A model generated the notes under the pieces. That model saw only the letters and a list, made by a program, of their open reading frames with translations, made no database searches and was not told the DNA's origin. Position numbers and translations under genes: made by a program. A DNA stretch of 64,000 bases from Liolophura sinensis. Lineage: Eukaryota > Mollusca > Polyplacophora > Chitonida > Chitonidae. The DNA is taken from contig NC_088302.1 in NCBI RefSeq assembly GCF_032854445.1, positions 22,269,788 to 22,333,787 on the forward strand, written 5' to 3'. Below, piece after piece: positions 5,353 through 55,286 of the stretch (the stretch's first letter is position 1; each line of letters opens with the position of its first letter).

Positions 5353-5496
5353 ATAGTGTTGTAGTGCCCCCCCCATCTATACATTTTTCTTTTTCTTAAA
5401 TATGCACATATGCTGAATATATTATTATATTTAGTAGTCCGTTTCCGCTAACTTTCTGTTGTGTAAGTTACGAATTTGCAACAACTGCCGGCGCAC

Positions 5497-6328
5497 GCGC
5501 CGGACGTTGATTTCGGAAGGAACAACGTGGCTTTGCCATCTCTGTTTCTTTACTGGAAATATTGTTGTTGCAGGTATGTTTATCATTGTACTATGAGCCA
5601 AATACGAGATTTAATGGTTCCCGAACGAAATGTAACGTCATTTTGGTTGTTTCATTGAGTAAACTGTAGTATTTTGACATAACAGAAGTTTCAGGCGATT
5701 AGCGATCGTTACTATGGTAGCACCATTGTAAAAACTTTGTGTTGTCTAGATTTGCTAAACTATCGCTTTTTGATTGCTTACTATATTGATAGTTGCTTTA
5801 AATAATGTGTCTTGATACTGATAATTAACCAATGTGACATTGAGAGAACTAAATGGATAAGATTTATGTAGTTTTGGACTGTACACAAAATACCAAGGCA
5901 CAAAGTATGGAAGCCCGTTATGTTCTTATTGTGTCAACACAACTTTGTGTTGTCTAGATTTGCTAAACTATCGCTTTTTGATTGCTTACTATATTGATAG
6001 TTGCTTTAAATAATGTTTCTTGATACTGATAATTAACCAATGTGACATTGAGAGAACTAAATGGATAAGATTTATGTAGTTTTGGACTGTACACAAAATA
6101 CCAAGTCACAAAGTATAGAAGCCCGTTATCTTCTTATTGTGTCACAATAATCTTATCCATTTAGTTCTCTCAATGTCACATTGGTCAGTATCAAGAAACT
6201 ACTTTGATTAAAATGTAAGTTTGAACTGTTATGAATATTTTCGGCACTCGCCGGACGTTGATTTCGGAAGGAACAACGTGGCTTTGTCATCTTTGTTTCT
6301 TTACTGGAAATATTGCTGTTGCAGGTAT
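5497..6328. repeat. Nested repeat block: flanking direct repeat, 208-bp tandem duplication, inverted copy
   Basis: An 80-bp segment at 5497-5577 ('GGACGTTGATTTCGGAAGG' to 'TTGTTGCAGGTA') recurs at 6247-6328 with few changes. Between them lie two tandem copies of a 208-bp unit (about 5733-5940 and 5941-6145), and then a partial inverted copy of the unit's middle at 6143-6199. Both 80-bp copies end in CAGGTAT. The block is repetitive DNA, and its origin (element or local duplication) is not clear. Confidence 0.75.
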
Positions 6329-6394
6329 TTCCAGAAGGAGTCCTTATATGATGTCCTGTACATCCAGTGGCTTGTGTATGAGCTGCCTCATTCC

Positions 6395-6397
<3 letters not shown>

Positions 6398-6437
<40 letters not shown>
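6398..6437. repeat. (TA)n microsatellite
   Basis: About 20 uninterrupted TA dinucleotides. Open frames that cross it are artefacts. Confidence 0.95.
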
Positions 6438-6440
<3 letters not shown>

Positions 6441-6479
6441 GTGTTACACTAAGCCCCAAGCATACATACATACATACGA

Positions 6480-8979: not shown

Positions 8980-9465
8980 ATGGCAAAATTGCCGAAGTTG
9001 GGTCTTCTTATATTTGAGGAATGTTTTCTTAATAATGATGCAGAATTATCGCCATTGTTCAGCAGAGATTCAGAAAGTGAGACAGATTTATTTCTCTGTT
9101 TTCTCAGCACCAGAAATGTGTCAAATCGCATTAAGATTAATGACTACTTAGAAAGTGTCATTCCAGAATATTCATGTGATGATTTCCCAAGGCATTTCGC
9201 ATAACAAGGGTGTTACTAGAGGCGCAGATTTCGCGTGTCTTGACACAAATCAATATATCAGGTGTTTATGAGAATGGTAAAACAAAAGAAAATAAAAAAC
9301 ATTTGATCCAACAAAACAGATCCTGGCAGCTATTTGGTGTCTCACCAATCAGGAGGTATAGTCAGGCCTGTGGCTGATCAGATCATGGTGACAATGTCAA
9401 CAGTTCACATATTTTCCGAAGAGTTTGTTGTGCACTAGTGGAAATGAAAAGCAGTGTTATTACAT
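8980..9465 (+). pseudogene. HARBI1-like (PIF/Harbinger) transposase fossil
   Basis: The N-terminal part is open from 8980 to about 9204 and includes 'NDYLESVIPEYSCDDFPRHF', which matches the conserved region before the catalytic core of Harbinger transposases. After a stop at 9202 the family resemblance continues in other frames: 'KQILAAIWCLTNQEV' (about 9315-9360), then 'VADQIMVTMSTVHI' and 'FRRVCCALVEMKSSVI' (to about 9465). These correspond to the helix-turn-helix region that normally reads through to the first catalytic Asp, which is not reached. At least two frameshifts and a stop make it non-functional. No terminal inverted repeats were located around it. Confidence 0.7.
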
Positions 9466-16880: not shown

Positions 16881-17806
16881 TCACTCCATTGCAATCCACT
16901 CAGGTGGAAAATAGGTCGACAAATTGTACACCTTTGACAAATCGCTGCCTTGTCGGAACTGATGCTTGTAGTACAACGTTATACCATTGGTCAGCCAAGC
17001 TGACCACCACCCAAAGGAACCAACGGTCATTATGGTGTGATTGCACAAAGTTAGCGTGGTGAAGTCCAGCTCTGCTGACTGACCCTCGATGAACACCACA
17101 TCGCCACCCCTGACGTTTTTCTTGCACCAGCCCAAGTCCTCTGAACACACCACGAATATTACACGGTTAAACCGCGATCTGAAGAAGTCGGTGGCTCGTT
17201 GAAGGTATTCTCTCGTAGCGACCACATATCCGTACTCGACCGTTTTGCTAGCTAGGTAATCTCCTCTGCGGACATGAATGCCAACGAAAGTTTTTTCACC
17301 CAAAGAAACGCTCCCCAGCTGCTCTTTTATCGACCTTTCTAACTTTTCGCTGGCATTCGCAACTAAATTCGACTTGATTCGTAGCTTTCGCCGAAGTTCG
17401 TTTTCGCTGGCCTTGAAGTACTTCCAGGATTGGAAGTATCCCTGCAAAGCAATGTCCGTAGCATTGCTAAAATCCACAGAGGCACTATCGTAAGCAGAGT
17501 CGCGGATATCACGGTGTTTAACAAATGACTCGCACAACCTGTTGTCCACTTTAATTATTCCGTTCAACTCAAAAACCCGCACCAATAAACTATCCCTCTG
17601 TAGCAAAGGTACCAGTCCCTTGGACCTCGCGATCCCAAACATGGAGGCGAATTTAAATAAGTGATTCCCAAGTCTTCCTTCTGAATTCATACAGAGTCGG
17701 GACCGGCTACCTGGCGGTCTCAGAAGGCCCAGTTTGGATAAGACAAAGTAATGGTCGCCAATCAACACTATCACGTAGAACCACGCAAACGCAAGGAAAA
17801 GGATCA
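16881..17806 (-). CDS. Galactoside alpha-1,2-fucosyltransferase (GT11), main exon
   Basis: The product transfers fucose from GDP-fucose to terminal galactose in the Golgi. About 308 residues are visible in one exon. A hydrophobic signal anchor covers roughly residues 2-22, as expected for a type II Golgi enzyme. 'GRLGNHLFKFASMFGIA' at 44-60 is the GT11 N-terminal motif. HVRRGDY at 178-184 is the family's donor-binding motif, and 'CNHTIMTVGSFGWWSAWL' at 255-272 is the conserved C-terminal motif. Asn-X-Ser/Thr sites occur at about 115, 151, 256 and 295. The frame has no ATG at its 5' end. Instead a polypyrimidine tract and AG (17807-17808) make a good splice acceptor, and the exon begins with TG. 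An upstream exon ending in A would complete a split ATG. That exon was not located. Length and motifs look intact, so the gene is probably functional. Confidence 0.9.
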
Positions 17807-17829
17807 CTGTGAAGAGGGAAAAAACAACC

Positions 17830-19250
17830 GTATTAATATACGTACAAATTTATTAATATTAATATAAATATTTGGAAGGTTAATTCTCATATATCCCACG
17901 TGAGAGCAAACAAATACGTATGGAATTTGCTGCCATACCATGACCATAAAATGTCACAAAGAGGCTCTGGTTCTATGCTTCATTCTTATAAATGAATGAA
18001 TGATTGTACAGATAGTTCATGTTGATTGATGGGGTGTCAGGAATTGTCAGCTGGAGAGAAGTGACATTAAACGAGGGCAAAAAACGAGTCTAATATCACT
18101 TGAGATTTTTTACAATTTATTTGAACTGGGCGGAGATGTGTTTGATGGAATGTAACCAGTAGGCTTACAGCCTGAAATTCTACTTTTTTTTTAATACACG
18201 CATGCGTTCCTAATTCTTTTCATTCGTAGTTTTAATTTTTTTTTAATTTCCTAACTGAGAAAACACAATTCCATTTAGCTGAGATGAGAGAAAACGAAAT
18301 CAAAATAAAATAGTAAACAGTCAGTAAAAATCCATTCCCTTTAGCTGAGATGAGAGAAAAAACTAGTCTTCTTAGTCGGTAAACAATTTCTTTTTATAAT
18401 GGAATATACACAATATTTCAATTCCCACGTATTTAGCTTTATAAATGAAAAGTCAACACGTGTCTTCTTTGTGATTACTCAGTAATATAACCTTTCTGGT
18501 CTGCAATAATAATTGACTTCACATAATGGTCTGCTGCTCAAGTATGTTTGACTTTACAATGCAATCGAACAGCATAGGTTAGAACTTGAAGTCTGTAGAT
18601 ACAGGCCTACTTTCTATGAAAACTGTTGTTTATACTGTTGTGTTTTTCATTTACTTGATTATCTTCGTGTGTGTATTCAAAATGACGGTAGATATGTCTT
18701 ACACGGGGCAAAATTAATATTTTCATGTGTCACACTTCAACTTTATCACAGAAACCAGCAAATTATGAACAGAAACACGTTTATTGTTGTCTTAACACTA
18801 CCTACATTTTGCGTTGAGGCACCATCTTAACTTTGGCCAACTCACTCTAAGCGGCAAGACAATAAGAAAATAAATATATCACAGAACCGGGGAAGCCATG
18901 AAAGTATAACAAGCAAATATAACGTGTGAGTGCGTGTGCCTGTTTCTGCGTGTGTACACGATTGTGTACTTCTAACACGCAATCAAGTTGTACAGTTTGA
19001 TGACAATTTTTAAAACCTTTCAGAGTAGCTTAGTGATATGGCTCACTGAGAACAGGTCTGGCGTCAGGACTACTGAGGAAATTTCAGTTAGAGAGTTATG
19101 TGATTAGTTGCCAGACAGCCAGTGGTGTGCCTAACCGACAATGGTATTACCAGTTCACATATTCAAGCGACCATCTCCAAATGGTAAGGCAAAGAGTGAT
19201 TTGGGAATGGATCTATCTACAGCCAACATCTCCAAAGTCAATTAATTTAC
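17830..19250. other. Upstream of the fucosyltransferase exon; no feature recognised
   Basis: AT-rich. It should contain the upstream exon or promoter of the fucosyltransferase gene, but no exon could be fixed. A 26-base phrase around 'CCATTTAGCTGAGATGAGAG' occurs twice, near 18270 and 18337. Confidence 0.4.
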
Positions 19251-21533: not shown

Positions 21534-22635
21534 TAAGTTTGAGATAAAGCGACCCAAACGTTTCAGGGCGGTCTCCCCTACAGCCAGGTTAGAGACTATT
21601 ATAAGTCCACCTCTGGAACTGTGCTAGGCTTGCGTACGCGATCTAAAGGGCTGTATCATACAGTGAAATTAAAAGGCGTGGCTGCGAGGGGCTTCATTCG
21701 GGGTAGAAAGGCACACCGGGTGTGTACGGTTCCTCCATCGTGCATTATTTGATTGGTGTTTTACGCCGTACTCAAGAATATTTCACTTATACGACGGCGG
21801 CCAGCATTATGGTGGGAGGAAACCGGGCAGTGCCCGGGAGAAACCCACGACCATCCGCAGATTGCTAGCAGGCCTTCCCACGTACAGCCGGAGAGGAAGG
21901 TAGCATGAGCTGGACTTGAACTCACAGTGACCGCATTAGTGAGAGGCTCTTGGGTCATTACGCTGCGCTAGCGCACTAACCAACTGAGCCACAGAGCCCT
22001 CCCTCCCCCCCCCCCCTGCAAACTGTGAAGCTTGATCAATGTTTGCTACATGTATACTCAGAAAGATACACTGACTCACAAGTTTTCCTGCACCTTCTCA
22101 ACACCATCGTTTCCATCCTTCGGTACACCTTATCACCTCATCCGGATCCAGTTCTGTTAAAGATAGCACAAGAGAGAAATTACAAACAGTTACAAACAGC
22201 ATTGCCATGGCTATTCACATGTATTCGTGTGGCTGTCTGTAGGCCATAACAAGGGATCTGCACAAGACTACAGTCAAACATAGCAGTGACTCAGTTATTT
22301 TCAGCATGACGGAGAAAGGCGTGGATGAGGCAAGTCACAAATGTTCTGGTGGGTTTTCACAAGTGCCACAGCCTGAGAATTTATTATGTGAGACAGAGGT
22401 AATCAGTATAAGAGTAGGAGTATCTGTAAATATGTTTCTTCCCTTCCTTCCTTCCTTCCTTCTGAGTTTGGATAGTGTTCCCGCTGAGGGACTCACAAGG
22501 AGAAGCAGCCTAGAGGGTAACATCTGGCAGTCAAGACGGTACAGCACCTGGGTGAAATGTACGAATGAAGACTGGCTGTGATCTTGGCAAAATACGTCTT
22601 GACTGCTCGGCTGTCTTGGAGGGAATGGGGAGGTA
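21534..22635. repeat. Segmental duplication, copy 1
   Basis: Three blocks recur at 24630-25413. Block A (21534-21748 plus the SINE at 21749-21998) matches 24894-25343. Block B (22232-22305) matches 25338-25413. Block C (22545-22632) matches 24630-24713. Block A also resembles 40140-40215, upstream of the paralogous first exon, so it is probably 5' flank or UTR of that family. Confidence 0.85.
21749..21998 (-). mobile_element. SINE-A, complete
   Basis: It runs from 'GATTGGTGTTTTACGCCGTA' to the tRNA head, read here as 'GCGCTAGCGCACTAACCAAC' and 'TGAGCCACAGAG'. The same insertion site is present in the duplicated copy at 25089, so the SINE pre-dates the duplication. Confidence 0.92.
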
Positions 22636-24629: not shown

Positions 24630-25413
24630 ACCTGGGTGAAATGTATGAATGAAGACTGGCTGTGATCTTGGCAATCACGTCTTGACTGCTCGGCTGTCTT
24701 GGAGGGAATGGGGCTAAAACAAAGGGCCGCATGGCAAGGCTGGGGTGTGGAGGTCATGTGACCTCCCACCCCCTCTCAGGCCATGGGCACTCCCCCACAA
24801 GCATAAGGCTTGGTTACTGATGTGACTAGCTTACTGGTGAACACCCAGAGGAGATCTGGCTTGGAGATTTGGGCAGATCTGACCTGGGGGTTTACAATAA
24901 GTTTGAGATCAAGCGACCCAAACGTTTCAGGGCGGTCTCCCCTACAGCCAGGTTAGAGACTATTATAAGTCTACCTCTGGAACTGTGCTAGGCTTGCGTA
25001 CACGATCTAAAGGGCTGTATCATACAGTGAAAATAAAAGGCGTGGCCGAGAGGGGCTTCGGGTGCATACAGTTCCTCCATCGTGCATTATTTGATTGGTG
25101 TTTTACGCCCTACTCAAGAATATTTCACTTATACGACGGCGGCCAGCATTATGGTGGGAGGAAACCGGGCAGCGCCTGGAGGAAACCCACGACCATCCGC
25201 ATATTGCTGGCAGACCTTCCCACGTACGGACGGAGAGGAAGGCAGCATGAGCTGGACTTGAACTCACAGCGACCGCATTAGTGAGAGGCTCCTGGGTCAT
25301 TACGCTGCGCTAGTGCGCTAACCAACTGAGCCACGGAGCTGTCTGTAGGCCATAACAAGGGACCTGCACAGGACTACAGTCAAACATAGCAGTGACTCAG
25401 TTATTTTCAGCAT
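24630..25413. repeat. Segmental duplication, copy 2 (rearranged)
   Basis: It carries blocks C, A and B in that order, whereas copy 1 has A, B, C. The SINE head joins block B directly at about 25338, so about 230 bases present in copy 1 (21999-22231) are missing. The first exon next to block A in copy 1 is absent here. Confidence 0.85.
25089..25341 (-). mobile_element. SINE-A, complete
   Basis: Full core and tRNA head, in the same context as the copy at 21749 (preceded by 'CCATCGTGCATTATTTGATT' in both). Confidence 0.92.
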
Positions 25414-25934
25414 GATGGCAAGTCTCATGGAATTCCACACGACCTCCCTATGGAGTGTCCTGAAAATCTGTAATCTGTAGTCAAAATGATTTCATCTTCC
25501 ATTTTCTGCCATTTTGGACTAGAACAAGGCATTTGGTATTCACATGAGTTTCCACCTGGGTGAAGCCAAAGAAAGAGTCACATATAAAAAAAAAAAAAAA
25601 GAAAAAGCCACGGTAGCTGGCACACGGGGCATACACATTCGTCAGTGACGCACGCCTGCATGAGCACGTCTTGGCAAGATTTGTTATTGTGTCCCGAACA
25701 TGTCAGCGAGTCTGTTTTACACTGGACAAGGCATTCTTATGGATGTACAACTTCTTGGTTTATTTAACACAACGTTTCGATGCAGATACTAGCATCGTTA
25801 TCAAGTGAATGACATCAAAATTACTACTGCGCTTATATATAGCAAGAGAAGCAAATGTCAACAGATAAAACAAAAAGAGGGTAAACAGTCCTCAGGGGAT
25901 TAAGGTGTCCTGGGGGTGGGTGTTGGGGTACTGA

Positions 25935-26193
25935 CTAGGCTCGGTGGGGTTCCTGAGCGGTTTGGAGGATTAGCAGATCATAAGCTGAGGGGAGGTAGAT
26001 GCCGTGATCTCTGTTTAGGCTGGGCTTTAATCTCTTAATCTGGATGGCTTCCTGTAGTTTTCGTTTCTTCCAATGGGGCTGATTCATGTTCAGTGTCCTG
26101 ACTGTATTCCAGTTGATGTTGTGGGATGGGTTTTCATGTATGTAGTCAGATATGGCAGATTTGGAGTCAAGTTTCTGTACTGATGAAGAAATT
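25935..26193 (-). pseudogene. Inverted Penelope GIY-YIG endonuclease C-terminus
   Basis: The minus strand reads 'SKSAISDYIHENPSHNINW', 'HWKKRKLQEAIQIKRLKPSL' and 'NRDHGIYLPSAYDLL', the typical end of a Penelope endonuclease domain. It sits in the inverted left terminal copy and extends further into the domain than the right-hand copy (27312-27449) does. Confidence 0.8.
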
Positions 26194-26243
26194 GTACATC
26201 CATAAGAATGCCTTGTCCAGTGTATCCCCTCACCGACTTCTAA

Positions 26244-27449
26244 ATGCCACTTAAGCAAGCTATTCGTCATCAGCATGGAGATGCGGCAATCCAGGACATC
26301 AACCGCTTGAATAACTTAGAGAAGAAATACCTGAAATGCTCCAACCACCTAACATTCCTGATGAAATGCAGAGACCAAGGCATCATACCCAAAGGCCTTC
26401 GGTTGAGATCCCCAGTCCATTCTCAATCAGCACACAAAATCCTTCAACAGGCTAGCAGACTCTTGGTTAAAGAGCGAATCCGACACCACAGGAAAACTAA
26501 AACACACAGCCTGGCTATAATTGTCGATCAACAGGACAAAATCCAGTCTATCCTACAGCCCGAAGAGTATGCCCAGCTCCGCCAAGCACAGACCGAGTCA
26601 AACAGACAGCTCAACTCGAAAATCAAATCCAGCCAACAACAAAAGTTCAACAACCTTACGCAAAGTACACGAGAGCCAGCCCACCGACACCAGTCCGAGC
26701 CCGTGAGAACCCAGTACATCAACAAGATTGTGGTGAACCTAAGCACTAAAGCACTCACTCCCCACCAACTTAGTCTACTGGCAAAGGGATTGAATTTTGT
26801 CCCAACCACCAAAACCATACCCAAGGATGACTTCATCGTAGACATCGAAGAAGGCCTTCAACAACTAGCACCCGGGGGCCACATCGACTACCTCCGCCAC
26901 CAGATAGCATCCCTACTGGATAAAGCACAACCCCAACGAACCAACCTAACTAAAGAAGAAAGCAGAGCCCTTGTCGAACTGAAGAAAGACAAATTTTAAC
27001 CATAGCACCAACTGATAAAGGAAAAGCCGCAGCCATTCTTGACAAAACAGATTTTAACAAACTGGTAGACAACTTACTAACAGACCAGTCCACATACCGA
27101 ACCCTGAAAACTGACCCCACCAACAAGTTTGACCGGCAACACAGATCCCTCCTGAACCAACTCAAAACCAGTGGTGAGATCACACCTGAAATCCAACGAA
27201 AGTTAACAGTGCAACACCCCCGTGCACCGTATGCCCGTGCAACCATCAAAATCCACAAGGACCCTGTAAAAGCCAGGTTACTGATATGCTCCAGAGGAAC
27301 TGTCTGGAACCCATTGGAAGAAACGAAAACTACAGGAAGCCATCCAGATTAAGAGATTAAAGCCCAGCCTAAACAGAGATCACGGCATCTACCTCCCCTC
27401 AGCTTATGATCTGCTAATCCTCCAAACCGCTCAGGAACCCCACCGAGCC
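26244..27449 (+). pseudogene. Penelope-like ORF, frameshifted and internally deleted
   Basis: The open frame 26244-26999 encodes the N-terminal region: 'KYLKCSNHLTFLMKCRDQGI' (about 30-50) and 'VNLSTKALTPHQLSLLAKGL' followed by 'FVPTTKTIP' (about 180-205), both conserved ahead of the Penelope reverse transcriptase. After 'ELKKDKF' a one-base frameshift at about 26994 leads into 'LTIAPTDKGKAAAILDKTDF', the first RT motif, and on to 'YARATIKIHKD'. At about 27310 the frame jumps to 'HWKKRKLQEAIQIKRLKPSL' and ends in a stop at 27447-27449, so the palm with its catalytic aspartates is deleted. Such an element could only have moved in trans, if at all. Confidence 0.85.
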
Positions 27450-27578
27450 TAGTCAGTACCCCAACACCCACCCCAGGACACCTTAATCCCCTGAGGACTG
27501 TTTACCCTCTTTTTGTTTTATCTGTTGACATTTGCTTCTCTTGCTATATATAAGCGCAGTAGTAATTTTGATGTCATT

Positions 27579-27625
27579 CACTTGATAACGATGCTAGTAT
27601 CTGTATCGAAACGTTGTGTTAAATA
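27579..27625 (+). ncRNA. Hammerhead-ribozyme-like motif in pLTR (candidate)
   Basis: The sequence TTGATAA, a 5-bp stem II (GATGC with GTATC), then GAAA, a possible 2-bp stem III (AC/GT) and an unpaired T follow the hammerhead core order. Compared with the canonical CTGATGA, positions 3 and 8 change together from C-G to T-A. The inverted left copy (about 25770-25810) has a perfect stem II (GATGC/GCATC). No local stem I is evident, which weakens the call. Hammerhead motifs are known in Penelope-like elements. Confidence 0.35.
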
Positions 27626-27811
27626 AACCAAGAAGTTGTACATCCATAAGAATGCCTTGTCCAGTGTATCCCCTCACCGACTTCTAAATGCCACTTAAGC
27701 AAGAGTCTGTTTTATACCAGCCCACTAAAACTGTATCGATTAGCTCACCTGCTCTACAAACGAGATTAGTAGAGGAACGTTATTTCGATCATGTCTTGTC
27801 AAAACAGCCAT

Positions 27812-27820
27812 GGGCTGAAG
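27812..27820. repeat. Target-site duplication, left
   Basis: GGGCTGAAG, identical to 36920-36928 and in the same orientation. Confidence 0.8.
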
Positions 27821-27895
27821 TACGCGCATAATATCAGCGGGTATGCCTCAGCAGGCTTTCACCTCACCCACTGGTAAAGGTAGCAGCATTTCTCG
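27821..27895 (+). repeat. Left terminal inverted repeat
   Basis: Matches the reverse complement of 36845-36919 with about nine substitutions over the first 70 positions. Confidence 0.85.
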
Positions 27896-28029
27896 TTCTT
27901 GAACCTCGTGGCCCAATTATCAAAGAGCCAGTCAAATGGCCGAAATGCCCCAGAGAAAGGGAAAATCCTTACACAAAATGTTATTGGATGGTTTAGTCAC
28001 GTGTTGAACTAACGACTCGCACAACATAG

Positions 28030-29916
28030 CCGACTTAGGATCTTACCAGCTGGAGTCAGGAGTTGTAGAAGAGATTGAACAATTTTTCAACATTAGTGAA
28101 TTGAAAGCCTTTCAGAAAAACTGTTCTTGCATATACAGCGGTACTGAAAAGTGATAGTCTAGTGTGTGTACCGACTGGCAGTCGGAAGTCATTGTGTTGT
28201 GAAGCGCTACCTACCATATATGATAGGCGATGGGCCAAACATGAAAACACAACCACAACAACGGACCAATCTGTTCATCCAACGTATCAGAGATCAGTAA
28301 TTCTCATAATATCCCTACTTGTCAACTTTTTAAACATGCAGGTGGATAGACTTACTTCCAGTGGATTTTCGGCCGTAAGTGTGGTGGGGAATTTGGACAG
28401 AGATGTCAAGAAGAACTTGGAAAACTGTCACTACAGGTAAAAACTATTAATGATTAGGCTACATTAATTGAAGCATTAATAGTTGAGATGAGATATGTAC
28501 ATGTAATCGTTCAGTAACCCATATCCAGTTGGACCCAGACGCTAGAAATCTCTCAGTGCATGTTCTATGGGGGGGGGGGGGGGGAATGAGTATTCGAGCA
28601 GATCGAGGTAGCTTTATCAAATTTTATACTGTTATATATGTATATTTTTATACACTGTGTATTATGGGGCCGCTATAACCGTGTTAACAGCTAGGTATAA
28701 ATTGATTCCAATAAATACCAACCTACCTTAAATTAATGACTGAGTTCCCTGCGTGACATAAGCATATTTGATTATAAACTCATAATGCTTATAACTCATC
28801 ATACATTGTTCTTCTGCATTGTATATATCATGGTGTTAAGGTATCGAACCTCATTTATCAAGATCCAAGATAAATATATGCAGTTGAGTTTTATTTCGGA
28901 TCAACTTCTCAGACCATGCATTAAATTAGGGTGCCTGGTTCAACATTACTTAGTACTTTGCTGTTTAGGGAAATTGCTGACTTACACTGTTTGTGTTTAT
29001 GTTACAGATATTTGGTAGGGAACCTAGAAAGTTTCCTTGACTCCGAGTTCATCAGCAGCCTTTTCAAATCTGGTGTCTATCAGAAGAGCGTTGCAGCATT
29101 AGTTTTTCATGAAGGTCATACAGCTGTGTCCTGGTAAGAATCAGCTTTTATTTTATGCGCTCCGATTAACATAATGAATGATAAAGTTCAGTGAGGACTA
29201 TGCTGTTATTTAAAAAATTATTTATTGGTCCAGTATGTCTTCCTGCATGAAAAATACTACCTTGTTTACAGCTAGCAAGGCTGGGTTAATGTTGATGAAG
29301 TAAAGCTATTGAAAGCAATGATTTATCAGAATTATTCATAATGTTGTGATATGAATAATTTTTATTTTCATGTATTTGTTTTTTTCATGTTCTTATTTAT
29401 GTATGCAATTGCTTATGATTTCTTTCTTTTTTTCATGAAGGGGACTTTCTTCAGATGGTAAAAAGGCATTTAGAAGCTTCTTCTCAAGAGTTGGGGATTT
29501 GTGAGCAAAATTTCCTGAGGTTCCAGTCATGTGCCTTACTGCGACAGCCAGCAAAGCCAGCAATATCTTGAATCACCACACCGCCCCAACATAAGGCTGT
29601 GTGTGAAAAAAATTAAGACAGGTTATGAAGCAGTACAATGGCTTGTCGAAGGAATTCTCAGGTATGGAAATAGATGTACATATCCGAAGACGATAGTTTA
29701 TTGCAGGAGTATCCGAGAATGCTCTGAATTATGCATTGTGTGTGGAACATCTTGGTAAAAACCCAAACAATGCCAGATGTCAAAACTAGTATTGTTGATC
29801 GGTTTTTACGCATCACCGGACAACTAGTTGTTGTCTTTGCTAGCAAGATTCTTGGGATGGGAATCAGTGTAAGAAGTTCCCATATACATGTAGTGCATTA
29901 TGGTCCTGCAGGATGA
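28030..29916 (+). pseudogene. RecQ-like SF2 helicase pseudogene
   Basis: Three exon-like blocks joined by good splice sites carry RecQ motifs in order. Block 1 (28030-28436, donor GTAAAA) has the Walker A equivalent PTGSRKS at 28171-28191, with Arg where the invariant Gly should be. Block 2 (29008-29133, acceptor TTACAG, donor GTAAGA) has 'NLESFLDSEF' and the DEAH-box equivalent FHEGH, in which Asp is His and Ala is Gly. Block 3 (from 29441) has 'VMCLTATASK' (motif III), 'KTIVYCRSIRECSEL' (motif IV region) and 'VVVFASKILGMGISV' with 'HVVHYGPAG' (motifs V-VI) in different frames. There is a frameshift near 28105, an in-frame TGA at 29502-29504 and further shifts after 29570. Both ATPase motifs are altered, so it is dead. 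No ATG was identified. Confidence 0.78.
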
Positions 29917-30040
29917 AAATCACACTGTAACAGTTTGGGATAACAAAATCGCTAGCCTACACATACTGAAGTCACACATTGAGACCGATATTATCATTGA
30001 ACATAATAAAAAGGATATTATACTTCCTATGATGTGGACT

Positions 30041-30306
30041 GGGCCTCCGTGGCTCAGTCGGTTAGCTCGCTAGCGCAGCGTGATGACCCAGGAGCCTCTC
30101 ACCAATGCGGTCGCTGTGAGTTCAAGTCCAGCTCATGCTGGCTTCCTCTCCGGCCGTAAGTAGGAAGGTCCTCCAGCAACCTGCGGATGGTCGTGGGTTT
30201 CCCCCGGGCTGTGCCCGGTTTCCACCGACCATAATGCTGGCCGCCGTCGTATCAGTGAAATATTCTTGAGTACAACGTAAAACACCAATCAAATAAATAA
30301 ATAAAT
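30041..30306 (+). mobile_element. SINE-A, complete, nested
   Basis: The best-preserved plus-strand copy. The tRNA head 'GGGCCTCCGTGGCTCAGTCG' contains the A box, 'GCTGTGAGTTCAAGTCC' the B box, and the tail is 'CCAATCAAATAAATAAATAA'. It lies between the two genes of the 9.1-kb element. Confidence 0.93.
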
Positions 30307-30810
30307 CATAGCAATGTACGTGCAGTAGTAGGTCAAAACAGATACACATAACATCTGTGGTATGTTGCAGAATGATGACATAGCATAGGATCATATGTTT
30401 AATAAAAATATAAAAAAAAATTCTTCATTTATAGAGATACACCTTGTGTCCTCTGCACAAAATATGTGCCACACTTAAGCACATGTAATGTGGAAAAACA
30501 TAATCACTTCTGACAACCCAACACAAACTATTTCAAGTAACACATTGGGACCTTCAACAGTATTACAAATATGCTGTACTGTACATAAGAAAAAACATGA
30601 AAATGAAGTGAATATCATTTCACTAATGTGAAGCATATGTTATACAGCCTATACAAGTGGCGTATAAGAAACTTGAACACACCATTAGATGACAATCTGA
30701 CATGAAAGGTTAATGACAAGTGGAACATATGTGGCCAACATGTCAAGAATGTGCAGAGGACATGTGACATATCATAATTTCACTGGCTTTATGTCCACTG
30801 TCTTATCATA
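30307..30810. other. Non-coding, between the two element genes
   Basis: AT-rich with no coding signal. It lies downstream of the DUF6589 stop codon at 30811. Confidence 0.5.
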
Positions 30811-33800
30811 TTAAAACTGCATATCTCTGGCTGCCCTTGTTTTTTGGTTATGCAGCCAACCATTGAATTTCATCAAGTCCACTGAGCTTAGCAAGTCATT
30901 TGGAAAGTTTGGGAAGTTAGCATGCTCAGCTGTTGCTTGGTGTTGAATATTCTCCATGTTAAGCAGAGCAGAAGACATCGCGGTCACGTCTTCAGTTTTA
31001 TGTTGTGTGTAGTCTGCATGCCTGCCACTGACAAAGGAACTCATCTCATCCAGAAGGGACTGAACCATGCCCAAACACTTGCATGCCTGACGAACAGCTT
31101 CATAGGACACATTGGTGCCTTGGGCTCGCATCATCTCTTTAACTTTATGCACGTGGGTCTCCACCAAACTGTCATTTGCAATACAGCTATGTATACTGCC
31201 AACAACATTCACAGACATGTTCCAACCATAGGCATACCTCTCATATTCTAAAAGAAGGCCAAGGTCATACGCCAACATACGCCACACCCACGATCGATAT
31301 TTGAAGTGTACGCTTTGGTCGAAGTACAACAGCAGGAATTTGAAATTTCTGAACAACCTGTTCCCATCACCCATCTTATAGGCATCCCTGATTTCACGAA
31401 GCAGAAGGGCAACTTTCATGAAAGATACTGCGTAATTGTGCAGACCATCATAGCGCTCATCCGACTCCATCATTACAGCAACTGTCACACCCTCTACTAC
31501 AATGCCATGTCTTCTTTATGTGGCGCTTCATCCCGAAAAACTGTAAGATTTCCCACAGTTAGTTACAATACAAAAGAATTTTCCTGTTTCTTTCTGCTGT
31601 TTCTCTCCATCTTCATCTATGCTCTGAAGATTTTTGCTGAGTGTTAGTGGTTGTCCATGGAGGACATTATGTCCGCAATGTTTGTGGCCATCTTTGTTGA
31701 AGATGACAATGCTACATCTCTATCTGTTTCATCAATCCCCAGAAGAAAGTTGTTTTTTGTGTTCTTCTCATTAAGATGATTCATTCTGAGGTAGTCCAAG
31801 CAGAAAGCAACTATATGTGAGTCCAACACATCATCAATAAGGTTTTTGGCCTGATTATAGCCATTTGTCATGTCCAGTGTGATATTTCTCCTGTCCACCA
31901 GTGTTTTCAAATGGTATAATGTCTCTCACACTTGTGGAACTGTAGAAGGTCTCCAGAATGTAGAGGCATGTATTCATGCACAAATGTAACCCTTCAGTTC
32001 TGTGCAAGATTCCCATCAGCATTGATGAAGAGTTGATCCCATTTGCCATATTTAGTTGTGCAGAATGAGCCCTTTCGTTTGTCAACTGGTCTCCTTCGAA
32101 AACCATCCTCTCTGTGACATTCTCTCCAAGTGCTTCGGGCACAACCGGAACATACTGTTCATAGATGTGATTTAGAATGTCAATCATGTCTGTGTTTATG
32201 TTCTCATTCTTTTCCAGAATATCAAGAAGAACATTATCTGTCTTCTTTGCCATTTCTGTCACATGTGGATGGGGAATGCACTTTGGAACAAAGTCCCAGA
32301 ATTGTTTCAAGCAAGTGGCAAATTGTGTCATAACTTCCAAAACATGAAATATATAGTTGTCTCAGAGTTCCTGGTGCTCTTTAGGTGAAGGCATGAACTC
32401 TGTGTTGTGCACTTCTCTGATATCTCTCCTGGGCTGGGTTTGGTCAAGCGAATCCTGTGGAATTATCCGCAGAGGTGCAGCATCTAGTAAAAACCAGTGA
32501 ATGTCTTCAGGTCGCTTTGTCAATGTCTGATGAAAAGGTTTGTGACTATAATCTAGGTTGTCTCCATGTATATCCCAACTCACAAAACTTGGTATTTTGC
32601 TCGGGTCTTTCTTGAAAACACCCAGGCCCAACAGGTGTTTGATGATGTAGAAGTTAGTGGAACAGATAGGTGAAGTGATGCACAGAACAGATGAAATGGC
32701 TGCAACAACAATGTTTTCCTTCTGACTTGAAATTCTGTCTGAATCCAAGCATCATGATACTTTTCATTTGCTTTTCTTTGTTTGTAAATTGTCTGGGTTG
32801 AGACAAATTCCACATTTGGACAGGCTTGTTATAGTTTTGTTCCTTGCTCCACCAAAGTCCAGCAGCAAGCCTACTGCATGTTGGAAAGCAGACAGCTGTT
32901 AAACAGGAGTATAGATCCAGTGGCAACTGTAGGCATCCTTTCTTTCCTGCTGAGCTTGGCCTGACTTCCTAACGGACAATGGATATGCAGAATTCTGATG
33001 CCATTCCTCCAGAATTTCCAAAAGTTCAAATTTGTTGAGGTGCTGGGGTGAGGTGTCTCTTAAAAGAGAACGTCTAAGAGTTGAGCCGAGATATATACAC
33101 TGGTTGTCCAGTTAGTATCTTCTCTTCCAGTAATTGCCTACAAGTACAGATAGCAAAGATTTAATATAAATTGTTCAATATTTATTAAATATTACACCTG
33201 AAATAACGTTACTGAAACTGGAAGAGGCGATTTTCATATTCAAATGATCACGAACACTGGAAAAATATGCCATGTTCTTCACACCAGTTAACTTCAGAGA
33301 TGTAAATTTAGGCTCTCTAATTAAGGGACATGTGCTTTATTAACAGACATCACATTTCTTTGCTAGCTTGAACTCTGGAACAGTTGACTCAAGCAACTCT
33401 ATTAGGTTATCTCCAAATTTTGGGTATCAGATAAAGTAGACCAAAGTATGATAAAACATTTAACACTGATCTAATTACAAGAAGTGGTGGTGTTACTGTG
33501 CATTTAACAAGGCTGAATCTGTTACACATTTGTGCTGATCAATATGGTTACTTTTGAAAAAAAAAACAACAATTGTTTGGTTGTTTTCTTTTGTGTCATC
33601 ATTTGAAGCACAAAAATCCTATCAGATGCATATAAAAGCATTACATTAGCATTATATACCTTCGTATTAAAGAACTCATGTGCAGTATATGGAGCTAAAA
33701 GGATCTGGAGTTGGGAAGATGGTTTTATACTTTCAGAAATCTTTGGAATGAAAATACCTGATAAACAGTTATTGATCTTAAACAGAAGGAGAACGCACAT

Positions 33801-34293
33801 GCACCAGTTATATCTCTTACATGTAAGCTATTAATACCTGATTTCCGAATTGCGGTATACAGCATTTGCCGCTTGTGTTGTCCCTTCCTTTCCACCCCTC
33901 ACAATGCCTCTACAGATTGCCACTGTTTCCTCCTCAGATTCGGCAATGTGTTTTCTCCTGCTGTCCAAATCTGACCATTACCTATGGAACATAATAACAA
34001 ATGTCAACACATTAGAAAAAGATCATAGAAAAAAAATATATCTACAATCAAGAAAATGTACAGAGCAAGTCAACAGACATGATATTACAAACAAAATAAA
34101 AAACAACATATGTGCTAGACCAACAATAGTGTGGTATAAGCAGATTTACCTTAGCAACGGAGTTAAACTCTTTTGTTGATCTGCCACATGGATGTTGTAA
34201 AAGTTACGCACTGCCCAATGGCTCAGTCATCTGATGGACAGCCAGCTGGTCTTCATACAGTATAAATATTTGTTATTAGGAAAACATCATTGC

Positions 34294-35182
34294 GATATTG
34301 CAAATACAAAAAAAATTATCAGCACACATTACAGTTAACAAATCAATGCATGTATTTGTACATGTACATGTATTTAATTTTACTAGTTTCTCTCAATATT
34401 GTATGACAGATTTATTCTGAATATTACATCAGTTGAATAAATACATCTAGCTTTCAATTTTACACTAAACATCAAAAGAAGGAAAAAATACTGATTCTTA
34501 TAACTACTTAATTATGATAAAACATTCCTTCTGTAATATTCACTATTTTCAGCAGTAACTTACATGATTGTTTTCAGTGGAAATGTCTGCCAGTGTGTCA
34601 CATCAAAACTGTAGCGAATGAATTATCACAAACAAATGTCAGTCTGACAATCAGCTACTGAAGAAAGATAAACATTTTTGATTAAAACTGTGATGGGACT
34701 TACAAGGTTCGTGATGCATGTAAGAGTTGTACACTTCATAGTTTATTCAGTGTTTCTTAACATATTATGCTTCACATTTTACTTGAAAGTCCCATTTCAC
34801 AAATATTTAATGGTAAAGCATTACTTGAATCATGCACAAATTAGTATATGCATGCAGCTCAACAACATGCATATTAAGTTAATACATGTACCTTACAACA
34901 AATATGAACTTTAATAACTTAATGAGACATAACTATTTCTACTGTGGAAAATTATGTAAATTAGAACTATAACGAACATGGAAATGTGCCAGTAATAACT
35001 TTGACATACTGTCTCTCCTGACAGTCCATTACTCTACTAATATTACTAGAACATGCAAAAGTCCCATCACAGTTTTAATCAAAAATGTTTATTAAATACA
35101 TGTACATGTACAAATACATGCATTGATTTATTAATTGTAATGTGTGCTGATAAATTTTTTGGTATTTGCAATATCACAATTG
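34294..35182. repeat. Inverted repeat pair in a DUF6589 intron
   Basis: The arm at 34294-34380 ('ATATTGCAAATACAAAAAAA' through 'TGTACATGTACATGTATTTA') is repeated inverted at 35090-35182. A second inner pair, 34663-34700 ('AACATTTTTGATTAAAACTG') and 35053-35090, is also inverted. The arrangement resembles a MITE or foldback insertion of about 0.9 kb. No clear target duplication was found. Confidence 0.6.
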
Positions 35183-35784
35183 TTAGACTGTTCAAAGGGA
35201 ATTCAAAAATGATTCTGGCAACATAGAACCATCATGCCCAATACATTTTACACATAAATCAAACACGAGTTAATACATTAATAATTACTGAATGGTATAC
35301 CAGAGGCCCTATTCCAGCCATAGGGTCATCAGCATCAGCTGGCATTAAGACTTCTTTGAATAACTGCTTTGCAGAGGTATGGGCTTGTTCTTTATGGACA
35401 GCAAGGTTCTCTTTATCAAGCGGTGGCTGGCATATAAAGCAATAATACAGCTATAGTCACTGTACTGATCAGTTCGAATAATGAGTAATTACTTCAAAAG
35501 CACATCGGGCAAAGTGCTAGATGATATAAACGTATGATAAATTGGCATATCAAGCTATGACAGTTACTACACCATTAGCAATACTGATAAATCATATTAG
35601 ATTTTAGTTTGGTAAGTGCATAGATTTTAATTAAACCACTTAATTGATATGTAATGGAGTAAAGAAACAAAATATAGAAAAACCCTTATACTGATATTGA
35701 CAGAGAATTTCTATTCATCAGCATTTCGGAACTGCTGGAAAAATATCTGAAGTGATCAAGCAGGGTTTACAATGTGGTAAATAA

Positions 35785-35935
35785 GTGGGAAGATCTGTCA
35801 GCAACCTGCGGATTGTCATGGGTTTCCCCCAGGCTCTGCCTGGTTTCCTCCCACCATAATGCTGGCCGCCGTCGTAAAGTGAAATATTCTTGAGTACGGC
35901 GTAAAACACCAATCAAATAAATAAATAAAATATGG
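35785..35935 (+). mobile_element. SINE-A copy, 5'-truncated
   Basis: 'GGAAGATCTGTCAGCAACCT' to the tail 'CCAATCAAATAAATAAATAA'. Nested in an intron of the DUF6589 gene. Confidence 0.9.
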
Positions 35936-36844
35936 TAAATTTCACAGTTTTTCAGTTCAAGTTTCAGTCGCTTTCAATTTTCATAATGCCCCTTATTGAG
36001 CTTGTTCTGATTAATTTCAAACCCAAGGCAATTTCCAGTGGCCCATTGTGTCTGATTGTAAATGTATTTTGGAGATGACTTTGTCTCACATTTTTGTTAC
36101 TAGGGCATTTTGAGATCATGGTGTTACCTTGACAGCTTGTGAAGGCTTTGGAATCTTTCTTCTCACTGGAATCTGTGAAGGTGACACGTCCACCCTTTGA
36201 CCATGTTGGCTATGGACAGGATGGATTGGGGATGGCCTGCTGCCCTTGGTGAAAGGGCTGAACCCAACCGAACGAGGAATTTTTGAGGAGTGCCTTGGGG
36301 TGTGGAGGATCTGGGTATGTTGTGTTGTTGAGATTGTTGACGTAAGCCTACATGTTGCCGTCAAGCTCGGTTGTAAAGGTCTCCTCTTTGAGCTAGGCCT
36401 ATTTACAACAGCGTCAGTGAAAAGAGACCCTGCGGGTAAATAGTTCTCGTTGAAGTTTTTCAACCTCCAACTGGGCTTGGCATCTTTCCAGTTGTTTTAG
36501 TCGGATGTCTACTTTATTTAATTTATTTGTACACGCAGTGCAAACATACAAAGTTCGAACATGCGACAGAGTCAGTACTTTGTCATAGAATCTGGGTCCG
36601 TTATTCACATTACTTCTTGTAGGGTGTCACATGTGTTGAAACAAAAAGACTGGCCCTATTTTCCGACATAAGCCCTGCATAAAAGGCAGATGTTGGAAGT
36701 GTTGGTAGCACCTCCCGAAGAGATAGCCCTCCCGCGCGCCAGTAAAACTTGTCACTTCCCGAACAGACTATGTGAAGCCCTGTTTTATTGGTTGATGCTG
36801 CTTGTAAATATTCATTGTGCTGTGCTTCCCTAAGTAGGTCAATA

Positions 36845-36919
36845 ATGAGAATGCTGCTACCTTTATCAGCCGGTGAGGTGGAAGCCGGCTGAGGTATACC
36901 CGCTGATGTTATGAGTGTA
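36845..36919 (-). repeat. Right terminal inverted repeat
   Basis: Reverse-complement match of 27821-27895. It contains an internal hairpin (CAGCCGG with CCGGCTG). Confidence 0.85.
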
Positions 36920-36928
36920 GGGCTGAAG
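36920..36928. repeat. Target-site duplication, right
   Basis: GGGCTGAAG, identical to 27812-27820. Confidence 0.8.
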
Positions 36929-42689: not shown

Positions 42690-42964
42690 TTTTTTTTTTT
42701 TTTTTTTTTGATTGGTGTTTTACGCCGTACTCGTAAAGAATATTTCACTTATACGACGGCGGCCAGCATTATGGTGGGTGGAAACCGGGCAGAGCCCGGG
42801 GGAAACCCACGACCATCCGTAGGTTGCTGGCAGACCTTCCCACTTACGACCGGAGAGGAAGGCAGCATGAGCTGGTCTTGAACTCACAGAGACCGCATTG
42901 GTGAGAGGCTTCTGGGTCATTACGCTGCGCTAGCGCGCTAACCGACTGAGCCACGGAGGCCCCG
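42690..42964 (-). mobile_element. SINE-A, complete with target duplication
   Basis: A T-rich tail, full core and complete tRNA head ('GCGCTAGCGCGCTAACCGAC', 'TGAGCCACGGAGGCCCC'). A 13-bp direct repeat (AAAAAATTATAGA) flanks it at 42677-42689 and 42965-42977. The high conservation suggests a relatively recent insertion. Confidence 0.93.
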
Positions 42965-50905: not shown

Positions 50906-51580
50906 TGTACATATGTCAAAATCTTTCCAATACTTTTATATTTAAACTTCCTATATTACAAAATGCGCGCGTGTAAAGACACTATGGTACACCTGTATAA
51001 AGGTATTATTGGATTTGGCGGAACAGACTAGACTAACTCACTTCCCCCTACCACCACTCGTTCTGCGTGTGTCATATCTTCGTTTTTAAACGTATAGTAA
51101 ACCTATCTCTGCGACATCGATATGCCCAAACAAGCACATCTTCGTAGGGCACAAGCAACGATCGTAACATATTTTATTACCTGGGTTACAACGGTGTATA
51201 CTGACGTACACATGTTGTGTGTGTAACAGGCCTTGTTTTTTACGTACAGGAACAAACACAGGCCTAGATACTTATATAGGCTACACATCTATATACGTAT
51301 ATAAGTAAGTAAGCTTCTGAAGTACGATGACCTACTTTACTGTGTGTTGTCACGTTTACAGCCGATTCAATGACCTTGTTCATGTCGCTGTTATGTTTTC
51401 GTCTTTACTCTCAGATCTGACCCCACTTTTGATATCATATATAGCAGAAAGCCAGCTGAATTACGTGTGGTAAATGCAGCGTTACGGAACTTGATAACTT
51501 GGGCTGAAGTAGGCTAGGCTATCTACGTCCAATACAGCCCAATCATTTCGGAGTTTTCACAGTACGTGGTACTGCACGAG
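50906..51580. promoter_or_regulatory. 5' flank of the AnmK-like gene
   Basis: No TATA box or initiator could be placed with confidence. The interval must hold the promoter and 5' UTR, or an upstream non-coding exon. Confidence 0.25.
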
Positions 51581-54500
51581 ATGTCGTCCTTCCACGGCAT
51601 CGGACTGATGTCCGGCTCGTCACTTGACGGCTTGGATATATGTTACGCCGAATTCACCGGCGACGTGGACACTGACGTCTGGGGCTACCGCATACTGAAG
51701 ACACTGACGTTGCCTTACACAGAGGAATGGTTGGAAAGATTACGGAACGCCCACCTATTGAGCGGGCTGGATTTAATCAAGCTCCACGTCGACTATGGTC
51801 GATTCTTAGGCGAAACAGTGGATGAATTCATCGATGCCGAAGATGCCAAACCCTTCTTCGTCGCGTCGCATGGCCATACCGTGTTCCACCAACCCGAGCG
51901 GCATGTCACGTTCCAGCTGGGCGAAGGGGAGACAACCGCAGCATATTTGCACTGTCCGTTCGTGTGCAATTTCAGGAACAAGGACATTGCCCTTGGCGGA
52001 CAGGGTGCCCCTTTAGTCCCCGAGGGTGAGCGCTACTTGTTCAGCAGCGTTGACATATGCGTTAACCTCGGGGGCATCGCAAACATTAGCTGGAGAGGTC
52101 AGAACGGCCATGACATCTGCGGATGTAATGCTGTTCTCAACATGCTAGCAGGAAAACATGGCAACTTTTCTCATGATGTAGACGGACAGATAGGAAAAAG
52201 CGGCAATGTGCTAGAAAACGTCCTCCAAGAGTTGGAATCTTTGAAATATTACACGCTTCCACCGCCAAAGTCACTTGGATTGGAATGGATTGTGGAGAAC
52301 GTATATCCAATTCTTGACGTAAGTGTAAGCCCATGTACATGTATTGTTCTGGTTTTACGTCGTACGTAAGATTATATAGGCTATACGTCGCATGATTATT
52401 TTGGTTACTGTGTATACATGATTTTTTGGAGCTGCTTTCCTCAAGTGATGCATTTTGCTTGATGCATCCACCTTATAAATTGGACCACTTTATGAGAAAA
52501 CCTTAAGTGTTGATACCAAAGGTATCAGTTTAATGCCTTCGTGCACATCTGAAAGTGCATTTTTACAGACCAAACCTGAGGAGAAATAGTTTCCATTTAA
52601 CAATAAAACTAATCGGTGTCATGTGGTGTCATGTTTTACACCCCTCACGATGACCGCTTCCCTGACCTAATGGTTAGAACGTCCGCCTCCAAGTCGGAAG
52701 ACCCCGGGATCAAACCCTGGTCGGGTCATACCAAAGACTTTAAAAATGGTACCTCGCGTGGCGCTCTGCGCTCTAAGAGGCTAGAGCAAGGAAACGTGAC
52801 GGTGGGTCCGGTGTCAGCATAATGTGACTGGGAGAGATGTCATGTCTGGTGTCTTCGTCATAATACTTCAGTGACGGCAGCACTGTGGCGGCATGTACTC
52901 GCCTTGTACACCCACCAAATGACTCCTTGTCGTCATATGACTGAAAAATGGCTAAGTATGACGTTAAACCCTCAAGCATACATACATACATGCATACTTC
53001 TAGGGGGACGTCCTAACCATGGTAGCATGACGTAAACATCAACCAGATAAGTAAGTTATATACTTTGTGGGATGTTACACCGTATTGACTATATTCAAAA
53101 ATGTTTCACTGTTATCCTCTGGGTCATGTTTCTCAGTGAAAAAAACCAGAATATCCACAAGTATATTGCGAAGTCTTATTGTAGTCTCAACAAGTCTTAT
53201 TAAATTCACTCGAACACACGGCCTATCAATCAGTTACATGCATATGTGTATATGGTCTGCAGTGAAGACAAGTCCTGGATAAGTGAAGAGCCTGTAGATA
53301 TACATACAAATGTATGGTGCGTGACTGCTTGGGGTGTAACGTCACACTCAAATGAATGGCGAAAACACACTAGTAGTATGCATCGATGTAGCTAACTGGC
53401 CGCGAAAAACTCGCCCCCGTTACTTACTCAAACATTGTCATTTAAGTTGCGTGACATCTCCATGCAGTTCCACGCGTTTCTTTTGACACTCAGCTTGTGG
53501 ATATAGGCCCCACTTTTTCCTTTCGCTAAAACTCATCGAGGTAGACCCATCTCTTGCAACTTGACATGATTTGGAAAAAAAAGACAAAATATGAATTAAA
53601 AATTCTACACAAACAAGTAAATTTTAGTTTTAGATATAGTTCCCAGATTTGATAGTTTTCCACCGACGTTTTACTGAAATCAGTACTTTGCACTGAAGAA
53701 TTGTTCGCGCGAAACGACGCTTATCCTCATTGCTGGCCGGGTTTAATACAGGAGAAAATGTACCCATGGTTTTGGGTTAGAGATTAAAGTTGCTTTTGTA
53801 ACATGATTTATTGTTGCAAATAATGTCAGTGAAAATGTTAGATTTTTTATACTGTACAATCTTTATGTCGGGCATTCCTTAGATTCGTGATTACCTTAAA
53901 GGATAAAACTCGAGCAAGCTTCTGAACTCCTGAATTCTTTATCTACGAGTATGCTTTTATTCAGATTTTTTAGGCTTTTTACAATGCCTAAAAATTACAT
54001 ATGCATTTAAACGTTTGAATGTTGAATTCTGAGGTGGGCTTTATGGCTAATGCTACCACTGGAAGGGCCCATGTACTTTGACCTCACATCAGTTTTATAC
54101 ACGTGATTTCGTTATTCTACATGTACAGATTTATTTATTTGGTTGGTGTTTTACGCCGTACTCAAGAATATTTCACTTATACGATGGCGGTCAGCATTAA
54201 GGTGGGAGAAAACCTGGCAGAGCCCGGAGGAAATCCACGACCATCCGCAGGATGCTGCAAGACTTACACGTACAGAAGAAATTCTTATAAAGTGTTCGAG
54301 CATAAGCTCGTGGCTACTTTGATAAACACTGAAAGATGTGTTTAAAGTGCGAAAAACCTTTTGCTACGTCAGGGTTCCGAAACAACTTCGGTTTGGTTGT
54401 TAAAGCCCAACAGAGAATTAAAACATGAATATTGCTCCATAAAATAAGATAAAGTAATAAATGAAAGTGTATTTATTTATTTATTTGGTGTTTTACGCCA

Positions 54501-55286
54501 TTTTCAAGAATATTTCAGTTATACGACGGAGGCCACATTATGGTGGGAGGAAAACCGGCAGATCCTGGGGGAAATCCACAGCTATCCGCAGGTTGCTGGC
54601 AGACCTCCCCACGTACGTCCGGAGAGGAGGCAGCATGAGAAAATGTTTATGTGCAGAACAGCATAGTTCTGTCGTCTGCCTGGTGAACCTAATCTACCAT
54701 TTTCGCTTTCTGAGGAAATTTCCAAAACGTTCAAGATATCAACAAACTTCAACAATCACACAGTGTTCTTTAGTTTGCTTTACTGTTGACGTTGTGTCTC
54801 GTTTATGTTTCGTTTTAGACGAACAAGTACAGCATTCCAGACTTGCTATGTACGTATTCAGAGCACATTGCTCGGGAGGTCAGCAAGGCCTGCTACGCCG
54901 CCCAGGCCTTACCCCAGCCTTACTTCGCTCGCAAGAGATCCACGGGTAACAGACAAATCCACTTAACAGTCCTGGTGACAGGGGGTGGAGCCTTCAACAA
55001 GTGTGTCATGGACAGACTCCGTGATAAGCTTAGCCAGAAGAACATCGTCTTGGCGGACACGGACGATGAAACAGTGCAGTTCAAGGAAGCTCTGTTGTTT
55101 GCCTTCTTGGGACTGCGTTGTTTGTTGGGGCAACACAACGTCAGCAGTAGTGTCACAGGCAGCTCCATGGATTCAGTCAGCGGTAGCATTCACTTACCCC
55201 CCAAGTCCGCCCAGACCCCTCTGACGCCAAAACGGGACAGGTTGTCATTCGGCCTTAGACGTCAGTCTTCTCAGGATAACGTTTAA
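51581..55286 (+). CDS. Anhydro-N-acetylmuramic acid kinase (AnmK-type), two exons
   Basis: AnmK uses ATP to open and phosphorylate 1,6-anhydro-MurNAc, giving MurNAc-6-phosphate in bacterial peptidoglycan recycling. Exon 1 is 51581-52318 (donor GTAAGT), exon 2 is 54819-55286 (acceptor GTTTTAG). The phase-0 junction gives 401 residues, slightly longer than the usual 370-400. Motifs are GLMSGSSLDGLD at 8-19 (ATP-binding), SHGHT at 96-100, GQGAPLVP at 140-147, NLGGIANIS at 162-170, 'GHDICGCNAVLNMLAGKHG' at 176-194 (Asp178 aligns with the catalytic base) and VTGGGAFN at 299-306. 'DIC.CN..LN.LA' and 'YYTLPPPKSLGLEW' (223-236) are in the style of Bacteroidetes AnmK, not the proteobacterial GPGN form. 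A Ser-rich C-terminal tail is extra. The ATG at 51581 was chosen because it directly precedes the first conserved motif. The gene looks intact and probably functional. Its role in an animal is inference. Confidence 0.92.
52648..52992 (+). mobile_element. SINE-C, full length, in the AnmK intron
   Basis: The best SINE-C copy. The tRNA-like head 'TAATGGTTAGAACGTCCGCC' with 'CCCGGGATCAAACCCTGG' is followed by 'GGTGTCAGCATAATGTGACT' and the end 'GTATGACGTTAAACCCTCAA' with a CATA-repeat tail. Confidence 0.88.
53000..54127. other. AnmK intron, no further feature
   Basis: AT-rich, no exon or repeat recognised. Confidence 0.5.
54128..54275 (-). mobile_element. SINE-A, 5'-truncated, in the AnmK intron
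   Basis: 'GGTTGGTGTTTTACGCCGTA' through 'CATCCGCAGGATGCTGCAAG'. Confidence 0.88.
54470..54635 (-). mobile_element. SINE-A, 5'-truncated, in the AnmK intron
   Basis: A TTTATTTATTTATTTGG tail, then the core to 'GGAGAGGAGGCAGCATGAG'. It ends about 180 bases before exon 2. Confidence 0.88.

Follow-up and report, generated by a model that had tools for sequence, protein, structure and literature searches.

In the genome of the chiton Liolophura sinensis, a gene for a RecQ-like helicase and a gene of the DUF6589 family face each other between inverted repeats, which raises the question of what kind of element holds this pair and which protein moves it. The window analyzed here is a stretch of 64,000 nucleotides (contig NC_088302.1, positions 22,269,788 to 22,333,787, assembly GCF_032854445.1), and coordinates without further label refer to it. 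Its element of 9,099 bp (27821-36919) is quite probably an old, inactive copy of a cut-and-paste DNA transposon of the AcademH type, with the DUF6589 protein as its DDE transposase.

According to the initial annotation, 9-bp direct repeats and inverted ends surround convergent RecQ-like and DUF6589 genes. This layout was confirmed in the window: GGGCTGAAG stands on either side of the element, the RecQ-like gene occupies the left side on the plus strand and the DUF6589 gene the right side on the minus strand, and both genes are broken. In a self-comparison of the window the inverted ends align over ~80-85 bp with 85-86% identity (E 5e-17), and in a second alignment over 82 bp with 85% identity. 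No empty site for the insertion was found elsewhere in the same genome with the joined flanks as query, which matched only the two flanks themselves and one partial place at 78%.

The interpretation of this locus as a DNA transposon with these ends, this gene pair and a 9-bp duplication is borne out by the recurrence of ends and pair in the genome. With ≤3 mismatches allowed, a 23-base terminal motif has 139 occurrences across the 609-Mb genome, as against one for a reversed control, and a whole-genome search with the element ends gave 18 matches per end. Among the 100 motif places listed out of the 139, 51 fall within two tandem arrays. The larger one (43 places, C13:9405689-9409422) repeats the motif at ~64-bp spacing and is apparently a satellite born from transposon ends; the second, small array (eight places, C2:26126967-26127301) has a spacing of 39 bp.

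The genome search with both ends that the annotation had proposed retrieved further two-ended copies with their own, different 9-bp duplications. Nine two-ended copies were compared in all: the two flanking 9-mers agree at all nine positions in four copies, at eight in three, at six in one and at none in one, where agreement at eight or more positions is expected by chance in ~1e-4 per copy. A scripted check examined 19 loci, paired both ends in six and left one-ended loci uncounted; it yielded full agreement at C1:65547192, C1:58132693 (where the first base of the end deviates from the consensus) and C9:25522401, 8/9 at C6:31169791 and C8:45268462, and 0/9 at C1:83646704. Full agreement was also found for the window copy, 8/9 for a palindrome on C11 (TAGGCCTAT/TAGGCCAAT, judged by eye) and 6/9, at the 9-bp setting, for a short copy on C6. 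The duplicated sequence varies from copy to copy. The C6 copy (993 bp) and a similar one on C1 (992 bp) are deletion derivatives in which element positions 1-418 (or 1-405) are joined to 8542-9099, and palindromes of 70-117 bp retain the ends alone. One element end and parts of element positions 5371-7440, followed by internally repeated DNA, also occur in a long duplicated segment with three copies (C156:30439-42800, C10:28417000-28429538 and C10:28119619-28131900). These were rejected as independent insertions and counted once, as one duplicated segment, because the sequence outside the end is also common to all three.

The DUF6589 search of the genome returned six matches at four loci. For DUF6589, the gene expansion that the annotation had pointed to in invertebrate genomes is thus not apparent in the chiton genome, where only four loci were found (a lower bound). 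Three of these four, in the window, on C4 and on C5, pair DUF6589 with RecQ. The C4 copy (locus L045) is the second long one and has the left end, the helicase and DUF6589; it is 85% identical to the window element over 5,991 aligned bases, ~150 of which belong to a dispersed repeat, and a search for its right end found none. It lacks the counterpart of 32092-32996, the part of DUF6589 that holds the first acidic motif, as far as the second. In the diverged C5 copy the two genes are again convergent. Inverted ends of the expected kind were not found around the C5 locus or the fourth DUF6589 locus, on C12, and the latter has no RecQ within the 29.7 kb read. None of the three chiton copies that carry both genes is intact.

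The helicase is best preserved in the C4 copy, whose closest solved structures are RecQ (7.8e-20) and Bloom helicase (1.1e-17); Pfam assigns Helicase_C (1.4e-11), with DEAD under the cut-off. It retains PTGSGKS, QQIGRAGRDG and a cysteine cluster, which we take to be RecQ-type motifs. The window pieces match Bloom helicase best among solved structures (1.3e-5), have DEAD as their sole Pfam match (0.01, under the curated cut-off) and contain VCVPTGSRKS, VFHEGH and TATAS, presumably a degenerate Walker A, motif II and motif III, respectively. The C-terminal helicase exons of the C4 copy (within L045:2597-4142) are missing from the window between 29913 and 29919. In a small, unrooted tree (28 sequences, among them few housekeeping RecQ proteins of animals), the helicases of C4 and C5 group with P0084-P0088 (support 0.998), and the bacterial and further RecQ proteins that were included fall outside this clade. 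Judged by these sequences, the transposon helicase is a lineage distinct from the rest of the RecQ set. The best protein match of the C4 helicase is LOC135464467 of L. sinensis itself (98% identity across the matched part). In this gene model (P0083), the transposon helicase (L045 2027-3113) is preceded by 88 N-terminal residues that have no match in the part of C4 read, so that the annotation presents a gene of the transposon as one of the host.

The minus-strand gene belongs to DUF6589 (Pfam PF20231; three pieces with 1.1e-15, 4.5e-11 and 0.021). Compared with whole DUF6589 proteins, its main exon (33111-30814) aligns to residues 9-790 of P0005 with 35% identity. In-frame stops occur at 32901, 32766, 32754, 32364, 31530 and 31518, and ~31925-31644 reads in another frame. 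A weak match to P0021 was found in the upstream piece 36548-36456 (31 residues with 48% identity; E 0.008 for the 3.8-kb region searched), which P0029 and P0063 also match at 0.02-0.03. The zf-AD hits of P0020 and P0021 themselves reach 25.9 and 21.8 bits, respectively, short of the Pfam cut-off of 28. In their predicted fold, DUF6589 models show an RNase H core that a large helical insertion interrupts after the second Asp and before the Glu, and their predicted secondary structure agrees with the P/hAT/Transib-RAG fold group. The P element, hAT (Hermes) and Transib/RAG1 fill the top rows of the structural aligner, although families that it leaves unlisted are not thereby ruled out. Identities of 7-10% set these transposases apart from DUF6589, and the predicted likeness in core and insertion would mean a common fold, not membership; to our knowledge, none of these elements has a RecQ partner. 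A plain Foldseek search with the first DUF6589 model gave nothing significant. The best 60 of 231 solved-structure matches of the DUF6589 profile contain no match to the catalytic core, all of them lying at profile positions 467-537, a zinc-finger stretch. Relatives were also sought in viral contigs, where none of 26 pattern stretches was confirmed. The predicted fold and the conserved acidic residues, rather than activity, thus make DUF6589 a probable DDE transposase and not the transposon cargo that the initial annotation had proposed.

The AcademH lineage of the Academ superfamily was described by Kojima (2020, Mob DNA 11:15), whose account is taken here from citing papers (PMC10045372, PMC10799480), and is reported in their passages on it from animals and fungi. 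According to the same part of PMC10045372, it combines a helicase with target duplications of 9 or 10 bp. The novelty at superfamily level that the annotation had entertained, citing AcademH merely by way of example, is therefore not upheld. The chiton copies have 9-bp duplications, the C4 copy and the window piece a RecQ-like helicase, and the DUF6589 relatives, by predicted fold and acidic residues, a putative DDD/E transposase. We regard AcademH as the most likely lineage of the element because both helicase and duplication length match, in a comparison of described traits. AcademX would belong to the same superfamily as the chiton element if the latter is AcademH, but differs from it in having duplications of 3-4 bp and a nuclease in place of the helicase; PMC10045372, in the passage concerned, proposes a connection between the greater duplication length of AcademH and the difference of helicase versus nuclease.

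Several other explanations have to be weighed against this assignment. That inverted repeats flank unrelated genes by chance is hardly credible and was rejected: the element stands out beyond chance because its end motif so far exceeds the control and other two-ended copies carry their own, different 9-bp duplications, and the ends, the gene pair and the duplications are all met again at other, independent loci. A host-gene reading was also considered and rejected. RecQ and DUF6589 could be passengers of an element on whose ends another transposase acts. The short ends-only derivatives have their own target duplications, so that movement of the ends in trans is feasible, which would suit passengers, as would the decay of the gene pair in all three chiton copies; DUF6589 itself, however, has the predicted fold and acidic residues of a DDE transposase and recurs together with RecQ, and we consider such passengers very unlikely. 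Kolobok target sites are TTAA, whereas the chiton duplications comprise 9 bp of varied sequence, and on account of this difference we rejected a relative of KolobokH, the odds of which appear negligible. KolobokH does resemble the chiton element in uniting a transposase (of Kolobok type) with a RecQ helicase, encoded in Kolobok-1_CCri on the complementary strand, but the section of PMC9587614 describing it states that fungi are the only known hosts of KolobokH.

A less remote, though still unlikely, alternative is a separate, undescribed superfamily in which a non-Academ DUF6589 transposase was independently paired with RecQ and makes 9-bp duplications. It draws on several points that weigh against AcademH: the resemblance to AcademH is one of described traits; DUF6589 is not named in the literature searched, where the string PF20231 occurs only in an unrelated optics paper; and Academ is, in the relevant part of a mollusc survey, expanded and abundant in bivalves but nearly lacking in the remaining molluscs (PMC10294476), although the Academ profile of that survey may not detect AcademH. 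On the other side, the element does have both AcademH traits, helicase and duplication length. A wider form of this proposal, that the entire DUF6589 family, fungal and animal, comprises DDE transposases of the P/hAT/RAG fold group and makes up a superfamily of its own, together with a RecQ lineage specific to these transposons, of which many "orphan" RecQ-like and DUF6589 genes of invertebrates would be the remains, is put forward with considerable doubt.

Under the favored explanation, the DUF6589 protein of the element would have a core that is RNase H-like and resembles that of the P element, hAT and RAG1, with a C2H2-like finger held in the large helical insertion, and a zf-AD-like finger at its N terminus that may bind the element ends. 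The transposase would excise the element at the TAC...GTA termini and insert it into target DNA cut with a 9-bp stagger, a chemistry suggested by predicted fold and acidic residues. The RecQ-like helicase would assist the element as an accessory enzyme, probably by helping to open or repair DNA, either at its ends or at the target, and the ~1-kb derivatives and the palindromes might have been moved in trans by the same transposase.

Table 1. Features of the transposon copy and its flanks (window positions).
Feature	Position	Strand	Remark
Left 9-bp target site duplication GGGCTGAAG	27812-27820	.	adjoins left end directly
Left terminal inverted repeat	27821-27906	+	begins TACGCGCATAA
RecQ-like helicase gene, broken; exon pieces to start of second RecA domain	28105-29913	+	best structure match Bloom helicase
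~260-bp dispersed repeat copy, nested in element	30041-30305	.	SINE-like; matches elsewhere in window
DUF6589 main exon (probable DDE transposase)	30814-33111	-	relatives align along it; broken
NDSLVE, candidate catalytic Glu	31159-31176	-	within main exon
RTEGLH, invariant ExxH	31984-32001	-	conserved motif
EGDQLTNER, candidate second catalytic Asp	32071-32097	-	within main exon
HGDNLD, candidate first catalytic Asp	32551-32568	-	within main exon
Stretch without counterpart in C4 copy	33347-34733	.	contains one arm of 90-bp inverted repeat
Right-terminal segment retained in ~1-kb deletion derivatives	36362-36919	.	together with ~27821-28238
Upstream exon piece YVCTACTNKLNK..., resembling part of relatives' N-terminal zf-AD-like zinc finger	36456-36548	-	weak match
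Right terminal inverted repeat	36836-36919	-	complement begins TACACTCATAA
Right 9-bp target site duplication GGGCTGAAG	36920-36928	.	adjoins right end directly

Inside the element, a 90-bp inverted repeat (94% identity) has its arms at 34289-34378 and 35091-35180. The nested ~260-bp repeat resembles a short interspersed nuclear element (SINE) and has a AAATAAATAAATAAA-like tail; its other copies in the window, alike up to ~93% and lying in both directions, include 21745-21999, 25087-25338 and 42695-42962. At ~140 bp from the transposon, open frames lie between the arms of a 360-bp inverted repeat with 99.4% identity (25718-26077 and 27310-27668), and the two of them that were tested have no Pfam match; the whole (25718-27668) is possibly a young, unnamed mobile element. 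Elsewhere, the window contains an open frame of 322 residues for a glycosyltransferase of family 11 (16884-17849), a gene in at least two pieces for anhydro-N-acetylmuramic acid kinase (AnmK; 51518-55283), here in a mollusc, and a 74-bp tandem repeat of ~18 copies (62694-64000) that extends past the window edge.

New here are the chiton family, including its short derivatives, and the identification of DUF6589 on structural grounds. The latter gives a Pfam family that had no assigned function a likely role as a DDE transposase. A gene annotated as RecQ in a mollusc can be a transposon gene, as with the C4 helicase within the uncharacterized LOC135464467 model. The presence of AcademH in a chiton, if true, would broaden the mollusc range of Academ, and the identification makes it testable why helicase-bearing Academ elements give duplications of 9-10 bp and not of 3-4 bp.
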